Assembly (NCBI GenBank): GCA_029261405.1
Contig: JAJDBK010000043.1
Location: forward strand, 62,001 to 126,000
Source of the DNA: Nitrospinaceae bacterium
GTDB lineage: Bacteria; Nitrospinota_A; UBA7883; JAJDBK01
Direction of reading: 5' to 3'
Length of the DNA: 64,000 nt
Below the pieces are notes generated by a model. It was not told the origin of the DNA, did not search any database, and was given only the letters and a program-made list of their open reading frames with translations. Below are positions 14,365-28,333 of the stretch, one piece after another. A program made the translations under genes and the position numbers. Within the stretch, counting starts at the first letter, position 1; the number at the start of each line of letters is the position of its first letter.

Positions 14365-15318
14365 TTGGCAAAAAAAAGAAAACGCGCAAAAAAGATACTC
14401 GACAATAAAGCGATATACGTCGCCATTCTACTCTTTGTCGCAGGTTTTCTCGCAGGCTATTTTTTCAAGGATACTGAGAAAAACGTTCCGACTCAAGGCG
14501 CGATTTACGACAACTCGGTAGAGTTTTACGAACCGTCTAAACCAAAACCAAAACCAAAGCCAGAAACAACACACAAAAAGGTGATCGACCGGAAACCAAT
14601 AATAGAAAAGGATGAGAAGGAACCGCCGAAACCTGTGGCTCAACCAGCGCCGCCAACGTCCACTGTGGCCATTATCATCGACGATCTGGGCGGAAACCTC
14701 AAGATGGCAGAACGTTTCATGAAACTCGACATTCCGGTGGCGTTCGCCATTTTGCCCCATCTGGCAAGGTCTGTCATGGTGGCGGAAAAAGCTCATGAGG
14801 CGGGGTTGGTGGTAATGCTTCACCTTCCCATGGAGGCTAAAGGCAAGGACGCGCGTCTCGGTCCCGGAGCTTTATATGTGAATATGGGAAAGAGATCGAT
14901 AGAAAAACAACTATTCGCCAATATCGACGCTGTTCCTCATGTCGTCGGTGTAAATAATCATATGGGGTCTCTTTTTACCGAACGAAGCCAGGGGATGGAG
15001 GATCTGGTTTCAGGTATTAAAAAGAGGGGTCTCTTTTTTGTAGACAGCAGGACAACGCCGAAAACTGTTGCGTACGATGTAGCTCTGGCCGCTGGGGCGC
15101 CGACGGCCAGAAGGGACGTGTTTCTCGATAACGAGCGGGATGTGGAAAAAATCGTTTTACAGATCAAAGACCTGGCCGACAAGGCTATTAAAAGGGGAAG
15201 GGCCATCGGCATCTGCCACCCATACCCGCAAACATTGCAGGCGTTAAAAAGAGCCTCCGCTATTTTCAGGGATTCGGGTGTTAAGGTGGTCCCGGTTACC
15301 CAACTGCTTATAAAATAA
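14365..15318 (+). CDS. Divergent polysaccharide deacetylase family protein (YibQ/DUF610)
   Basis: A 317-residue protein with a TTG start at 14365, an N-terminal basic stretch and TM helix (about 16-35), and a Pro/Lys-rich periplasmic linker (about 50-95). The divergent deacetylase domain follows, with motifs IIDDLGGN, NNHMGS, DSRTTP and the C-terminal CHPYPQT. The family is related to NodB-type deacetylases and is often encoded next to carboxyl-terminal proteases, as in this neighbourhood. The substrate is unknown; cell-wall or exopolysaccharide is the usual guess. It converges with the next minus-strand gene across 4 bp. Confidence 0.85.
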   Translation: MAKKRKRAKKILDNKAIYVAILLFVAGFLAGYFFKDTEKNVPTQGAIYDNSVEFYEPSKPKPKPKPETTHKKVIDRKPIIEKDEKEPPKPVAQPAPPTSTVAIIIDDLGGNLKMAERFMKLDIPVAFAILPHLARSVMVAEKAHEAGLVVMLHLPMEAKGKDARLGPGALYVNMGKRSIEKQLFANIDAVPHVVGVNNHMGSLFTERSQGMEDLVSGIKKRGLFFVDSRTTPKTVAYDVALAAGAPTARRDVFLDNERDVEKIVLQIKDLADKAIKRGRAIGICHPYPQTLQALKRASAIFRDSGVKVVPVTQLLIK

Positions 15319-15322
15319 GTAT

Positions 15323-17893
15323 CTATTCCCTATCCATCAACGATTTCAGGCACAATAGACTTGAGATGTTGTGTTGCACATAATCGATCCTGATCTCAAA
15401 GTTTGTGAGACTGCGGTGAAAACCTCCCAACGCGCGGTTCGGGTCTTCAAGGTAGATGGTAGTCTCCGGCGCGAACTGGGTCTGGAGCTGGAATCTTACG
15501 CCAGCTTTTAACGCCGCCAGAACCGAGCCGTCACCCGGTAACTTGTTCATGTCGGTAAAAAGGTTGTAGGCGGCGCAAAGACCTTCGCTCCTGGTTGCAG
15601 TTGGTGTAGAGCGGGGAGGAGTATAATAACTACCTCTCCAGTCGTCGTATCGGTCTGGTGGATTCATGCTCTGTTTTGCAACGATGGCTGTTACGATCCT
15701 TCTGGCGTGCAAAAGCAACAGGTCGTCTTTTTTCGCCCTGTATAATTCGTTTAGCCCGTATAGCAGCCAATGATCGTGTATCAGGTTCTCTGTGGCGGTA
15801 TCCTTGTCCCTGACTTTTATAAGGTAAAGGGTAGATCGGTAAGCGGACTCAAGCCATTTTTCGTCCCCGTCAAGTTTATAAAGCCTCATGAAAGCCAGAA
15901 TCGATTCGCCGGGGTAATATTCGGAGATAAAGTCGGTGGCTACCCCCCCCGGATACGATATTTTGTGAACAGAAGAGCCGTCATCCCGCAACATGTGGAC
16001 CATTCCGTCTCCCAGCTTCTTGACGGTATCCAGATGACTGGCGTCGCCGGTTACATCCATATATTTGATCAAAGCGATTATCGCCAGTCCCGCTCCCCCA
16101 AGTTTGACCGACCCTTTTTCCATTATAGCCAGCGCTTCGGACGCCCCCGGCATCGGTACGATCTGGTCTGACAGGTAGCCGATAGCTCTCTTCGAAGACG
16201 CAAGCAGTTCACTATCTTTTCTGATTTCATAAAGCTCCATCATCGCGTAGATGGTTCCCGCATGGCGAAGTATGTTGTATTTATCCCGGGACGTATTTTT
16301 GTGAGCGTCAAAGGAGTAGACAAAACGCCCGTCAGGACCAACGGCTGAGGTAAGATATTTTCCGCCCATGACGGCTGATTCAAGAAGATCCCCGGAGGTG
16401 TAGTTTAAAACCGGAAGATGACCCCTCACGATCCCGGTCCGCCTCTTCTCGCTTGCAAAATGGTTTACCGTGGTGAATTTATAACCCCGCGATTTCGATT
16501 TTAATCTCTTCAGCCGTTTAAACGGGAGGTCACGTTCCTTTAATAGTTTTGTCATTCTTCCGGTATTGAGATTGCCTTTTCGGGAGAGAAGGACTCTACT
16601 CGTTATCTCATCCGGCAGGAACGCAATTCCTGTTTTCCGGTTAAACGCAAAACCGAAACTACCGTTCCGGAAAACAGGGGGGACAACGCCCTCCACTATA
16701 TTGAGTTTCTCAACGAAATCGACGATATCGACTTTCACCCATTCAGGAGACCAATGGTCACCTGTTATTTTCTTGAGTTGTTTTATCGCTGTCAGTCCCG
16801 CTGTCTCGAGGTCAAAACCGCTCCCATACGTTACTTTCGCCTGTTTGCCAAACCGCCCCGCCGAAATAAATATAATGGCGGGCCGGGACGAAGCGCTTTT
16901 CGGCGCCCCGTTATTTTCTATCGTATCCCAACTCTCGTAAAGTCCGTCCGCTAAGCTTTGAGCGTACCGTTTTTTCTCTTCAGTCTCGGCATTGCCGGTT
17001 CCTGCAAGATTTTTAAACCATACTTGCCGGTTTTTTACGGCAACTTTTTTATGCGCTTTTTTAAAGAGAGTTGGGACCGGAGCCGAATTATCCGCCTGGC
17101 CGCTTGCAAGCGTAAAGAACAGAACGCCTGATAGAGCGAAAACCGCCGAGAGTATGGCGAGGTTTCCAAACGCCCTTAAACTGAAAAATCTTGCGTTAAC
17201 AACCACCGACCGCACAGTCCCGGAACCGATATCGATGGCGTAATAAATGATGGATGAGAGAAGGCAGATGGCGCCTGCCATCTCGAACTCTTCTTCGAGC
17301 AGGACTTCGAGTCGGTAGACCGAATAATCGGAAAATTTCGCCGCCCCCCGCACTCCTTCAAGGAGCAGGGCAAGAACCCAGAAACCGAGGCCCGCGAAGG
17401 CCCAGAGCGCGGAGCGTTTACTGGTAAGGAATCTCTGGGTGAAAAAGAGCGCCATGGCCGAGACCAGAAGAATAATTACGGGGGCGAAAACCAGTTGCCA
17501 CTGCGTGATATATATCCATGGCCCTCCCATTTTTTCAGAGGTGTTTCTTATCTCCGCCCAGAAAAGATTTTCGTGCAGGATGGTGATCTCATCAAGCGAG
17601 AGCAGAAACCCGACAAGCCCCACACCGAGCCACAAGGCCGGAAACGCTGGTCTGTACTTACGGTCAAGGCCGGTTTCAACAAAATAAGCGAGAAGACACG
17701 CCATGCCGAAGAGTGTGAAAAGAGCGCCGGAATACCAGGTGGGGATGTTCCGCTCCTTATCGAGGTTGAACCAGTAGACGCCCGACAACTTCATGTCCGA
17801 ATAGAAGAGATCCAGCAGGCCGAGGATTATGGCTACAATAAAGAGGAGCCGAATATAGAAGTCGGCTCTGTTGTTTAACGATTTTGTGTTCAC
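15323..17893 (-). CDS. Large membrane protein with predicted alpha/alpha-toroid periplasmic domain, function unknown
   Basis: An 856-residue protein. The first 270 residues contain about seven hydrophobic helices. Residues about 300-490 are a soluble region I do not recognise. Residues about 500-850 show the repeated helix pairs and aromatic/acidic pattern of an alpha/alpha toroid such as six-hairpin glycosidases (RHAGTIYAMMELY near 540, GGAGLAIIAL, FISEYYPGESILAFMRLY, HDHWLLYGLNELYR). No catalytic residues can be named with confidence. Its ATG overlaps the stop of the 1233-residue gene upstream by 4 nt (17890-17893), so the two products are probably made together. A glycan-processing role is inference only. 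Confidence 0.75.
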   Translation of the reverse strand: MNTKSLNNRADFYIRLLFIVAIILGLLDLFYSDMKLSGVYWFNLDKERNIPTWYSGALFTLFGMACLLAYFVETGLDRKYRPAFPALWLGVGLVGFLLSLDEITILHENLFWAEIRNTSEKMGGPWIYITQWQLVFAPVIILLVSAMALFFTQRFLTSKRSALWAFAGLGFWVLALLLEGVRGAAKFSDYSVYRLEVLLEEEFEMAGAICLLSSIIYYAIDIGSGTVRSVVVNARFFSLRAFGNLAILSAVFALSGVLFFTLASGQADNSAPVPTLFKKAHKKVAVKNRQVWFKNLAGTGNAETEEKKRYAQSLADGLYESWDTIENNGAPKSASSRPAIIFISAGRFGKQAKVTYGSGFDLETAGLTAIKQLKKITGDHWSPEWVKVDIVDFVEKLNIVEGVVPPVFRNGSFGFAFNRKTGIAFLPDEITSRVLLSRKGNLNTGRMTKLLKERDLPFKRLKRLKSKSRGYKFTTVNHFASEKRRTGIVRGHLPVLNYTSGDLLESAVMGGKYLTSAVGPDGRFVYSFDAHKNTSRDKYNILRHAGTIYAMMELYEIRKDSELLASSKRAIGYLSDQIVPMPGASEALAIMEKGSVKLGGAGLAIIALIKYMDVTGDASHLDTVKKLGDGMVHMLRDDGSSVHKISYPGGVATDFISEYYPGESILAFMRLYKLDGDEKWLESAYRSTLYLIKVRDKDTATENLIHDHWLLYGLNELYRAKKDDLLLLHARRIVTAIVAKQSMNPPDRYDDWRGSYYTPPRSTPTATRSEGLCAAYNLFTDMNKLPGDGSVLAALKAGVRFQLQTQFAPETTIYLEDPNRALGGFHRSLTNFEIRIDYVQHNISSLLCLKSLMDRE

Positions 17894-20800
17894 TTTGCAA
17901 GAATTCCTATATAAGCGATTTTAGGCGCTACTTGTGGGAATTTCTTCAGTACCCTTTTATCGTGTCCCGGAAGGATGAAAAATGGGGAAGCGGCTTTTTT
18001 GTTCATCTCCCTGATCGCCGAAATATTTTCATTCTCATCGTAGTTTGCGCCGGTAGGCAAGTATCTGTCGATGCTCTTATAAAGATACGCTGTGTCTCCC
18101 CCGATAATTACAGGACCGTCCAGAGTCTTCACTGTCACATATTGGGAGCCTATGGTGTGTCCTCCACCAGCCGTTATATCTATCCCCGGCGCAAAAACAG
18201 CTGAACCATCCTTGAGTTTTAACCTTCCCTCGTTTTCGGCTGTCAGCAACGCTTTGACACCAGGGCGATCTGTTTTCTCTTTTATAGAGTCAAACTCTTT
18301 TTGCTGAATATGGATATTGGCGTTGGGGTAGTCGGACAGTGAGCCGATATGGTCCCAGTGCCCGTGGGTGACAATTATATCGCGTACATCATCAGGTTCG
18401 ATCCCAAGCTCGCGCAGTTTAACCACCGGTCGTTCGTACCTTGTAAATTCTTTTTTCCTGGCTTTGTTACGATCACCAAAACCTGTATCGACCAACGTAA
18501 CACCATCGTCGCTCTTTATCACCCAGTAGAACCAGTCGAATGAGACTTTTTTTGATGGCGCCCCTCCCTTGATCGCCCTGCTCTCCTTATACTCGGAGGA
18601 GCCGTAACTTACGGCGTAGACTTCATGTTTGTCCAATGCTTTAGGGTAAGCCTCCACGTCGCATGTGAGCCAGGGTGAGTAGAGAAGGGTCAATAACGCC
18701 ATCGCCGCTACCACGTTGGTCACAGCGGTAAACAACATCGCGCGGGCCGACAGAAAAAGGAGACCGACTAAAAGGTAGAGCGATACACCGATCATCGCCG
18801 TGGCCGTAAGACCCCAGGCGGTTGATGTATTCATGGCAAGGGGGACAGCCAATGCGCCAAGGGCTCCGTTCATGGCGAAGAGCAGGGTAGGGGGCAATCC
18901 ATCCTTTGCCGCCGTTCTGAGCGTATACGGAAACGGTACGCCCATAAAAAACGCTATCGGGGCGATAAGGATTACGGCAATGCCCATCTTGACGAGCAGA
19001 GGGTTTCTCGCTGTTGCGGCGAAAACAATGGGTGAGAGTTTTATGTAGACCACCAGCAGGACTATTATGGTCAGGAGAGATATCCATAGCCCCTTTTGCT
19101 TCATGGCTCCACTCGAAAGCGACCCGATCCCCGAAAATATAAAGAGGGTTCCGAGGACCAGAGTGAAAGTAACTATAGGTGAGCCGATAAATATGCCGAG
19201 ATGTTGTATAAGGGTGACTTCGATCAACAGGTAAGCCGCTCCGGTGAACATCACGATAAACATATGTCTGAGCGCGGGCATCCTGTCGATTTCCCTGCCG
19301 AACAGCGGCGCGAAGCAGAACGGCAATACCAACAGCGCCACGATAAGGGTTTTTACATACCCATCTTTTATCGATTGGCTGGCAGGGTCGATGCGGAATG
19401 GAAAAGGTTTGTCGTCGGTGATAACGGTGACATTCCTTTTTACCATGAACTCCCGGTCCATCTGACCACGGATGATTTTGGAAAAATTCGTGTCGAGTGG
19501 AATATAAGGGTCGCTCAGCATGGTTGTCACGGAGTTTTTAATCGGCCCTTTGTAAACCCCTTCCTCTTTTTCGATTTTACGGATATCGTCAACCTCTTTT
19601 AACCACTTCTTGAGCAGAATATTTTCGTCTTTTGTGAAGGGGGTCTTTTTCATCAGGATCTGGATATAGTTATTGGTCTTGGTGATCCAGCGAAAGACGA
19701 AGAAGTGTCGTTCCGGGTTTTTTGCGCCCCGATCTTCCAGGGCTTTTTTGAGAGTCACCAATTGCTTGTAGGGGTGCGCTTCGCGAAGTGGATTGTTGGC
19801 CGGCTCTTCTATGATGAGCGTCCCGCGAGGTGTCAGGTGGTCGAGGTACATATGGGCCGCCTCAAGGGTGTTGAGGTACTCCGGGGCGGCGGATCTGCCA
19901 CGTACGCCTCCCTTGGCGTAGTGGGCGTTTAGCAAGGTTATCATGTCAAACGCTTTATCGTTTCGTTCCAGGTAACTTCTGCCGTCGAGCAACTCCACCG
20001 TTATATCTTTATAGTTGTCGCCATTGTACGGTACAAGCTCGCCTGTCATAAGATCGACGACCGACGGGTTTATCTCCACTCCATGAACATCGTTGGATAG
20101 AAATCTACCTGTTTTGGTAACGCCATCGCCCGAAAGCCCGATAATCAGGATGGCCGGATTGTCGTACATATTGTTCGGCATTCGTGGGTCGATCGCAAAA
20201 TCCTCGACCGGGTTGGGGCGAATAGTGTCGATGGTCCTGCCGTTATCGTAGCTTTTCAGGGTGGAGGAGTCTGGTTGTCTGCGGACGATATCGTACCTGC
20301 CGACGAAGGATGAGCGAGAGAAGAGCGTCTCCGCTTTTTTATGTTGTTTGCTCACCTTTGCCCTGACCACGTTCAGCCAGTCTGTCTCAAGGTTCAGGTA
20401 CCCACCCGTTATAAAAATGGCCGATCCGAGAAGGGCGAGGGTGATCAGTGGCGCCCGGAAACTTTTTACCGGATGTAACCGGATAAAGAATATGGCGGTA
20501 ATAAATGTGAAGGCCGAGAGGAAAAGAAGCCCGCTCTCCTCCCGGAACATTACCAACGCGGAATTGAGCAGGATCGCTCCGAGGGCGGCCCCCAGCAGGT
20601 CGAAGAAATAGATACGATACGAATCGGAAAAAGTGAGCGCCGCCGTAATGAGGTAACCGCAGGCGATAAACGGGACGGTCAGCAGTAGGGGCGCCAGAAT
20701 GGTCGATTTGTGAAGAGCCACCGCGGCTCCAAAGGAGAGGAGTATCGCAAAGGGCAACAGCAGACCCCACAACGCAAGGGCGCTACGCCTTCTGTCGTTA

Positions 20801-21591
20801 TCGGTATGGTATGCGAGCAATCCACCGATCGATATACCGAGCAGAGCCGTGGAAATAACCGAGTTGGCGCTGTTGTAGTTGTTGAATATGGTCAGAAGCT
20901 GAAAGAGTATTATCTGCAGAAATATGATGGTAAAGGTTGTTCCGAAAACACCCGCGTAGAGGTTCCAGGCGTGAAATGGAGCGGGCTTTTGTTGCGGACC
21001 CCTTCCGCTGTCACGGCTGTATCCGAACAGAAACAATCCGGCTGAATAGAGAAACGCCGTGGCTCCGAACAGTCGCGTAACGCCTGAAATCAAGGCCAGA
21101 TACAAATTGTCGCTCTCCGGGATCAGCAGGTAGATCACCCATAAGGTGAGCCATATTACGGCGTAAGCCTTTGCGTCTTTGTTATCCCCCAGCGCATGGA
21201 GGTAGCTTTCCCCGAAATAGAGGAGGAACGAGACCGAAAATCCCGCCATTAAAAGATACTGGTATTCGCCAAGGTCATCGGACCCGATTCCGTTGATAAC
21301 GTGGTGAAACCTTGTGAAAGCCAGAGCGGACATAGCCAGGGCCACTATGGCGGCCATTACCCAGAAAGGTTTTCTGAGGGTTTCTTTATGGGATACGGCC
21401 AGGAAAAAGAGTGACGTGGCGATTAATTGAGCTGTTACGAGCCATGTGGCGGGGGTCAGTCGGTTGTTGAAGTTAAAATACGATTTCCTCCCCTGGCCCC
21501 ACTGGTATTCGGGCCACATCAAATGGGCTATACATAAAAGAACCTCGATTGTGACGAGCGCGAGGAGGGGCATTCTCAAATTAGCTATCAT
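17890..21591 (-). CDS. Spermidine-synthase-like polytopic membrane protein fused to a metallo-beta-lactamase domain
   Basis: A 1233-residue fusion. Residues about 1-410 are polytopic and include the FDLLGAALGAILL helix seen in membrane-embedded spermidine-synthase-like proteins. An AdoMet-type Rossmann domain spans about 470-650 (ILIIGLSGDGV near 478, VHGVEINP, LLDGRSYL). A second membrane block lies at about 750-965 (YLLIEVTLIQHLGIF). Residues about 985-1233 form a complete metallo-beta-lactamase fold of the lactonase/glyoxalase group: HGHWDH at 1076-1081, H1145 (GGGH), D1166 (GGDTAY) and H1210 (LPGHD). All expected metal ligands are present. The substrate of either enzyme half is unknown. 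It is the first gene of a two-gene unit read away from the hub at 21592-22333. Confidence 0.8.
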   Translation of the reverse strand: MIANLRMPLLALVTIEVLLCIAHLMWPEYQWGQGRKSYFNFNNRLTPATWLVTAQLIATSLFFLAVSHKETLRKPFWVMAAIVALAMSALAFTRFHHVINGIGSDDLGEYQYLLMAGFSVSFLLYFGESYLHALGDNKDAKAYAVIWLTLWVIYLLIPESDNLYLALISGVTRLFGATAFLYSAGLFLFGYSRDSGRGPQQKPAPFHAWNLYAGVFGTTFTIIFLQIILFQLLTIFNNYNSANSVISTALLGISIGGLLAYHTDNDRRRSALALWGLLLPFAILLSFGAAVALHKSTILAPLLLTVPFIACGYLITAALTFSDSYRIYFFDLLGAALGAILLNSALVMFREESGLLFLSAFTFITAIFFIRLHPVKSFRAPLITLALLGSAIFITGGYLNLETDWLNVVRAKVSKQHKKAETLFSRSSFVGRYDIVRRQPDSSTLKSYDNGRTIDTIRPNPVEDFAIDPRMPNNMYDNPAILIIGLSGDGVTKTGRFLSNDVHGVEINPSVVDLMTGELVPYNGDNYKDITVELLDGRSYLERNDKAFDMITLLNAHYAKGGVRGRSAAPEYLNTLEAAHMYLDHLTPRGTLIIEEPANNPLREAHPYKQLVTLKKALEDRGAKNPERHFFVFRWITKTNNYIQILMKKTPFTKDENILLKKWLKEVDDIRKIEKEEGVYKGPIKNSVTTMLSDPYIPLDTNFSKIIRGQMDREFMVKRNVTVITDDKPFPFRIDPASQSIKDGYVKTLIVALLVLPFCFAPLFGREIDRMPALRHMFIVMFTGAAYLLIEVTLIQHLGIFIGSPIVTFTLVLGTLFIFSGIGSLSSGAMKQKGLWISLLTIIVLLVVYIKLSPIVFAATARNPLLVKMGIAVILIAPIAFFMGVPFPYTLRTAAKDGLPPTLLFAMNGALGALAVPLAMNTSTAWGLTATAMIGVSLYLLVGLLFLSARAMLFTAVTNVVAAMALLTLLYSPWLTCDVEAYPKALDKHEVYAVSYGSSEYKESRAIKGGAPSKKVSFDWFYWVIKSDDGVTLVDTGFGDRNKARKKEFTRYERPVVKLRELGIEPDDVRDIIVTHGHWDHIGSLSDYPNANIHIQQKEFDSIKEKTDRPGVKALLTAENEGRLKLKDGSAVFAPGIDITAGGGHTIGSQYVTVKTLDGPVIIGGDTAYLYKSIDRYLPTGANYDENENISAIREMNKKAASPFFILPGHDKRVLKKFPQVAPKIAYIGILAK

Positions 21592-24684: not shown

Positions 24685-24817
24685 CAGAAAGAATAATTTT
24701 AATGGAGGCGCATGTATATGGACAAAATTTTGTAAGTAGTTGAAAATATAGCTATATCCACTGTGGGGGCATATTATGGATATTTTCCTGGGGTTTAAAC
24801 AGTCAATTGGAGGAATT

Positions 24818-25621
<804 letters not shown>

Positions 25622-27370: not shown

Positions 27371-28333
27371 ATGAATAACCTTGACGATCTACCGTGCGAC
27401 GATATAATCCATTTTCGTGAAAGCTCCGACCCCACCATCTTCTTCGATATCGAATTGCAGAATATTGACCGGCTGACGCAATACGATTCGGTGGAACTGC
27501 ATCTGGTCTTTTCTCCATACAGCAGAAACGTGACATCAAAAAATTTCATCTTCTTTCCGTACGAAGATTACAGTCACGATATCTCCACCCACATGAAATC
27601 GATTTATACAAAAATCGGTAGTATTGGCGACAACCTCTTCGGGTTGGGGCTCGGTTTTGCTCTTGCCGTTATTTTCTATATTTTTAAGCCGTCAGAGCTT
27701 TTCAGTGTGGAGTCGGTAGTATCGATAATAGCCGCTTACGCTATCGGGAAGGAGCTGTGGGCCGACATAGATAACGGGTTGGTGAGGCTGACGAAGAACT
27801 GGAGAATTCAGTTCCGGAAAAGTTACTACTTATATCGGATGGAGCGGGGAACCACCCTGACCCGTTATGCGCAGATCGCCCAATCGAATCGCTACGGTCT
27901 TCTCGCCCTGAATCCAGGTCTTTTCGACTTCATCCAGCAGAAAAGTTCCCAAACACTGCGGATGTATTTCGACTCCGAATGTATACGCGCCCATAAGGGG
28001 GCAAGCGCTCATATTTTCAGTATCAGGGTCGATCCGGAAACATCAAGGCTTCTTGTAGCTAAAGGTTATATGATCGGAATGAAAACAAGTTTTAACAGAC
28101 ATTGCGCGGGGCTGATCCGTAGTGTAGAGCTGTTTCAGTCGATCAGCAAAACAATGGATTCAAGTTGCAAGGGTTGTATCGACAGCGCGGGGGAGTGGCG
28201 CGAGGGAGCTATCTTTTATCGGCGTACGGAAGCTTTCGGCAGGTTAAAGTATTTCGCCGAAGAGGGTATTGTCGATAATGTGTCGGCCCTCACTGTCGCG
28301 CCTGTAGAGTCAATTGCATCTGATAATCCATAA
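27371..28333 (+). CDS. Hypothetical membrane-associated protein
   Basis: A 320-residue protein I do not recognise. One or two hydrophobic segments lie at about 90-130 (LFGLGLGFALAVIFYIF, then VVSIIAAYAIG), separating an N-terminal beta-rich region from a larger basic and aromatic C-terminal region with CKGC near residue 260. It begins 9 nt after the PAP2 gene with the same orientation, so an envelope role shared with it is possible but unproven. It converges with the CCA transferase across 12 bp. Confidence 0.6.
   Translation: MNNLDDLPCDDIIHFRESSDPTIFFDIELQNIDRLTQYDSVELHLVFSPYSRNVTSKNFIFFPYEDYSHDISTHMKSIYTKIGSIGDNLFGLGLGFALAVIFYIFKPSELFSVESVVSIIAAYAIGKELWADIDNGLVRLTKNWRIQFRKSYYLYRMERGTTLTRYAQIAQSNRYGLLALNPGLFDFIQQKSSQTLRMYFDSECIRAHKGASAHIFSIRVDPETSRLLVAKGYMIGMKTSFNRHCAGLIRSVELFQSISKTMDSSCKGCIDSAGEWREGAIFYRRTEAFGRLKYFAEEGIVDNVSALTVAPVESIASDNP

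Follow-up and report, generated by a model that had tools for sequence, protein, structure and literature searches.

The adjacent genes for P0001 and P0002 encode a new protein architecture that is built from known families and is rare, conserved and distributed over several phyla. P0001 joins a degenerate membrane domain, a membrane spermidine-synthase-like module and a metallo-beta-lactamase domain in one chain, while P0002 carries a related membrane domain, a middle domain and a putative (alpha/alpha)6 toroid. Our reading, which is tentative, is that the two proteins form an inner-membrane complex with periplasmic soluble domains, which transports and edits a glycan or a lipid-linked molecule. 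A literature search returned no paper describing the pair. The features, numbered within the window (the whole 64,000-nucleotide stretch of DNA that was analysed), are the following:

17890..21591, minus strand: P0001, 1233 amino acids, with 6 transmembrane (TM) helices, 7 TM helices, a Rossmann domain, 8 TM helices and a metallo-beta-lactamase domain
20977..21591, minus strand: P0001 residues 1-205, N-terminal domain with 6 TM helices, homologous to the P0002 membrane domain but degenerate (hhalign)
20392..20976, minus strand: P0001 residues 206-400, TM block 1, the seven helices that open the membrane spermidine-synthase-like module (hydropathy, model helices, standalone relatives)
19357..20391, minus strand: P0001 residues 401-745, Rossmann (AdoMet-type) domain, distant homologue of polyamine aminopropyltransferases (family profile, alignment)
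18754..19356, minus strand: P0001 residues 746-946, first seven TM helices of block 2, common to standalone relatives
18682..18738, minus strand: P0001 residues 952-970, extra TM helix, in full-length fusions only
17893..18636, minus strand: P0001 residues 986-1233, metallo-beta-lactamase domain of the AiiA / N-acyl homoserine lactonase type
17890..17893, minus strand: GTGA stop/start overlap linking P0001 and P0002
15323..17893, minus strand: P0002, 856 amino acids, with 7 TM helices, a middle domain and a toroid
17084..17893, minus strand: P0002 residues 1-270, 7-TM domain
16424..17083, minus strand: P0002 residues 271-490, middle domain, with no more than a remote likeness to AMMECR1
15326..16423, minus strand: P0002 residues 491-856, putative (alpha/alpha)6 toroid of the GH127/GH76/sugar-epimerase type

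Both open reading frames are exactly as given in the first-pass annotation, P0001 being a single uninterrupted frame of 1233 codons and P0002 a frame of 856 codons. The G+C content at all three codon positions is close to that of the neighbouring genes, so both look coding. At the junction, P0001 ends in GCA AAG TGA, with the GTG AAC of P0002 nested within. The overlap at 17890-17893, previously read as ATGA, is present, but its sequence is GTGA, and the start codon of P0002 is therefore GTG rather than ATG. The only Pfam family above its cut-off in P0001 is Lactamase_B, and no family exceeds its cut-off in P0002. The convergent neighbour (window 14365-15318) encodes a polysaccharide deacetylase of divergent sequence (PF04748, 258 bits). 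Two further frames (window 24776-25618 and 27371-28330), about 280 and 320 amino acids long, have no Pfam match at 1e-5. No dedicated glycan cluster was found among the neighbouring genes.

The fusion recurs outside the source genome. Among 385 genomes sampled around it, a second full-length fusion (1332 amino acids, 37% identity) is present in one genome, from another phylum. A scan of named species genomes revealed fusions in Ca. Scalindua sp. OFTM1, Ca. Scalindua rubra, a Hydrogenedentota MAG and an Acidobacteria MAG, the Hydrogenedentota protein being identical to the 1332-residue fusion. The full-length relatives, from the two Ca. Scalindua and Hydrogenedentota, share 35-46% identity with P0001, and the contig of the Acidobacteria MAG terminates within the fusion gene. 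Within the Scalindua order, the fusion is present in 2 of 62 genomes, and no further full-length fusion (E <= 1e-60) was found in the 396 genomes sampled from the Acidobacteriota phylum and the 392 from the Planctomycetota phylum.

The earlier proposal of a two-protein membrane system fits these genomes well: homologues of both genes occur together in all four other genomes and adjoin in three. The two Scalindua genomes have their P0002 homologue downstream, within about 60 bases of the fusion gene; in Ca. Scalindua rubra (L078:10274-12939) it is split near its 3' end, by an assembly frameshift or by real decay. At the start of contig C27 of Scalindua OFTM1 lies the C-terminal end of another copy of the fusion (L126:1-250). 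No P0002 homologue comes after it; by eye, the next frame is transposase-like. In Hydrogenedentota, read across two contigs joined by a 36-base end overlap, the stop codon of the fusion overlaps the ATG (as ATGA) of a gene for the membrane half of P0002 only. The toroid gene is on a separate contig, so the parts need not all be tightly coupled. In the Acidobacteria MAG, the toroid and TM homologues are on contigs other than that of the fusion. Standalone genes encode synthase-like membrane proteins of about 800 amino acids, lactonases of 250-310, membrane proteins of 240-300 and toroid proteins of mostly 630-740 amino acids. The presence of the whole architecture in several phyla argues for more than chance. 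The synthase-like modules of all five fusions group together in a single clade (99% SH-aLRT), and the lactonase domains could conceivably have a single origin as well, with the Hydrogenedentota copy unplaced in the tree. The fusions are scattered over several phyla and missing in most sampled kin, which suggests horizontal transfer.

P0001 had been described as having two membrane blocks; three were found, of six (residues 7-192), seven (residues 218-399) and eight (residues 746-970) TM helices, the last two matching the model helices. The structure models, made from shallow alignments, are weak (mean pLDDT 57 and 46); only their helix boundaries and their matches to metallo-beta-lactamases and toroids were drawn on, to back up the sequence results. 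The N-terminal domain of P0001 can be aligned to the membrane domain of P0002 over 194 columns (hhalign probability 97.8%, E 8e-13). In the P0002 domain, residues D101, H107, W132, E179, E200, E201 and E204 are invariant in ten relatives, and this acidic set is mostly absent from the P0001 copy. An unassigned standalone family with six to seven TM helices (L129:6398-7300, L072:1315-2088, L073:1471-2190, L124:117-857 and L088:1483-2286) keeps invariant D, H, W and E residues and an EExxE motif, which could form a metal site or belong to a membrane enzyme. The region of residues 952-970 is hydrophobic in all four full-length fusions and not in the standalone family.

The carboxy-terminal part of P0002 shows remote profile and fold matches to GH127, GH76 and sugar epimerases, all under the family cut-offs; for PF07944 (GH127 beta-L-arabinofuranosidase) the scores are 15-18.9 bits against a gathering score of 24.9. 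As these are (alpha/alpha)6 enzymes, the matches back the alpha/alpha toroid that had been predicted here. The toroid family has the conserved set RHxGT, YYPGE, DxW, RxE and IDYxQH, and several standalone relatives carry lipoprotein-type signals. Of ten middle domains in the P0002 family, one (L114, 4e-8) matches AMMECR1 (PF01871); P0002 itself has no such match, with a profile comparison probability of 1.3%. Contig C14 of the source genome encodes a 500-residue protein that combines its canonical spermidine synthase with an almost complete AMMECR1 domain, both above their cut-offs (L130:733-2235, minus strand), and no paper treating spermidine synthase and AMMECR1 together was found in a literature search.

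The AdoMet-type domain of P0001 is a Rossmann domain distantly homologous to polyamine aminopropyltransferases: its family profile matches aminopropyltransferases in the PDB, the best being 7xif (8.9e-13), and residues G485, G488, E506 (the acidic residue after beta 2), D536 and R538 are retained. P0001 itself has no match to PF01564, which some standalone relatives do pass; PRK03612 matches residues 326-551 (E 3e-4) with 19.3 bits against a cut-off of 472, and NF037959 (fused MFS/spermidine synthase) is not among the families listed for P0001. The MDLTDP segment of 7xif aligns with TLLNAH or similar in the fusions, which puts a histidine at the position of the catalytic aspartate. This residue, H557, is invariant in the four full-length fusions, and the two aspartates found in polyamine synthases are missing.

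The main new result concerns the side of the membrane on which this domain lies, as suggested by loop charges. In 25 aligned synthase-like modules, the N-terminal-side loops of block 1 contain 20.4 lysines and arginines per protein, against 4.7 on the Rossmann side, and the bias has the same direction in all 25, which are related sequences and therefore not 25 independent trials. Together with the seven helices of block 1, this places the Rossmann domain on the outer face. The loops one helix away from it on either side are both positive, so that a reversal would require errors in both flanking helices. Standalone relatives end inside after the seven helices of block 2, and the eighth helix of the fusions would therefore bring the lactonase domain outside. 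We infer from the sequences that both domains lie outside the cytoplasm. Relatives of the lactonase and toroid domains that are exported agree with this topology, the nearest standalone lactonase-type proteins bearing N-terminal signal-like segments. For the membrane domain of P0002, the positive-inside count is weak (11 versus 8). An 889-residue MFS-spermidine synthase-TPR protein is encoded on contig C1 of the same genome (L132:757-3426, minus strand), and its loop charge also places the synthase domain outside; contig C1 contains a further spermidine-synthase match.

AdoMet is not expected outside the cytoplasm, and a non-cytoplasmic Rossmann domain makes AdoMet chemistry doubtful. If the Rossmann and lactonase domains were cytoplasmic instead, P0001 might be a working aminopropyl- or methyltransferase that uses AdoMet or decarboxylated AdoMet and is coupled to a hydrolase. 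The retained glycine-rich loop, E506 and D536 and the match to the polyamine aminopropyltransferases speak for such an enzyme, but the outward topology of all 25 sequences and the replaced catalytic residues speak against it. In addition, a canonical spermidine synthase is encoded elsewhere in the genome, which can do without P0001 in this respect, and we consider an AdoMet transferase unlikely. Homology of the domain to polyamine aminopropyltransferases is supported; a working AdoMet enzyme is not. Polyamines are known on the outer surface of Pseudomonas aeruginosa (PMC9746822), and P0001 might therefore have a polyamine-related role.

The 14-TM layout of the synthase-like module contains a tentative 6+6 repeat, the half-repeat homology between blocks 1 and 2 being only suggestive (E 0.0016, probability 16%). 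This layout speaks for a pair whose chief task is to transport or flip a substrate, with the Rossmann, lactonase-like and toroid domains confined to binding or gating it, and so does the presence of a related family with fused MFS in this genome. We give this little probability, as all lactonase metal ligands are invariant even though the fusions share only 35-46% identity with P0001, which suggests catalysis.

The lactonase-type domain belongs to PF00753 (Lactamase_B), scoring 68.3 bits over residues 1022-1198 (cut-off 22.7). The ligands described earlier (HGHWDH at 1076-1081, H1145, D1166 and H1210) are all present, and positions 1076, 1078, 1080, 1081, 1145, 1166 and 1210 are invariant in all four full-length fusions. 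The position of the AiiA tyrosine, after the bridging aspartate, is occupied by tyrosine in three of the four. The hydrolase half of the earlier proposal is supported, with the predicted AiiA-type lactonase fold of a putative zinc enzyme: the closest sequence and fold matches are the N-acyl homoserine lactonases of Pseudomonas poae (8x78, 1.1e-24) and AiiA (4.5e-13). These matches would also suit a periplasmic quorum-quenching N-acyl homoserine lactonase. However, the domain scores 78.9 bits against the cut-off of 375 for the AiiA equivalog (NF045699), and quorum quenching leaves the toroid and the 14-TM core unexplained; it is quite improbable. A search of the same genome for LuxI gave no match, and control genomes were equally without one. 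Finally, the fusion might be suspected of stemming from an assembly error or a frameshift, as its modules are separate genes in most genomes. Uninterrupted full-length frames in four genomes from at least three groups rule this out for practical purposes.

The location, the lactonase fold and the type of toroid would all suit a complex that faces the envelope and edits an exported glycan or a lipid-linked molecule. In such an inner-membrane complex of P0001 and P0002, all soluble domains would be periplasmic. P0001 would pass or present a substrate by means of its 14-TM core, which resembles a 6+6 transporter with two extra helices that keep the Rossmann domain between them on the outside; the AiiA-type metallo-hydrolase on its additional helix would open a lactone or ester of this substrate, and the P0002 toroid would act on the sugar part of the same molecule. 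Our guess for the most likely substrate is an exported glycan or a lipid-linked glycan, and the order of reactions is likewise a guess. The two proteins might pair via their homologous N-terminal membrane domains, also a guess, with P0002 retaining the D/H/E set and P0001 contributing a degenerate copy. What the computations show are the domains, their homologies, the pairing of the genes, its recurrence and the metal ligands. The lack of a dedicated glycan cluster, the toroid scores under the cut-offs, the weak structure models, the near-even charge count of the P0002 membrane domain and the separate toroid gene of Hydrogenedentota count against this reading. Of the activity first suggested, making or modifying a small molecule or glycan, the glycan part is compatible with the toroid, but a working AdoMet enzyme is not supported.

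If the topology is true, the common bacterial annotation "membrane spermidine synthase-like" misleads, since the presumed cofactor would be missing at the site of the domain. It is possible, though far from assured, that the whole family has its Rossmann domain outside the cytoplasm, binds another ligand and consists of envelope enzymes or binders, the fusion with a lactonase and a sugar-active partner being a self-contained periplasmic editing machine. The fusion can be regarded as a natural experiment, in which a lactonase-type hydrolase and a toroid partner are tied to the module and narrow the search for its substrate. Its presence in Ca. Scalindua offers an anammox lineage for examining expression.

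Compared with known systems, AMMECR1 is matched over the middle region by one P0002 homologue, L114, but not by P0002 itself. The toroid domain has a weak profile and fold likeness to the toroids of GH127, GH76 and AGE-type epimerases, but misses their cut-offs, has its own conserved set and is anchored to seven TM helices. PRK03612 and NF037959 have, like P0001, a TM block beside a spermidine-synthase-type Rossmann domain, while P0001 has a second TM block after it, a histidine for the catalytic aspartate and scores under the curated cut-offs. AiiA (2a7m and 3dha) and 8x78 share the metallo-beta-lactamase fold and the HxHxDH-H-D-H ligands with the carboxy-terminal domain of P0001, which differs in being located behind 21 TM helices, in its predicted periplasmic location and in scoring far under the AiiA equivalog cut-off.
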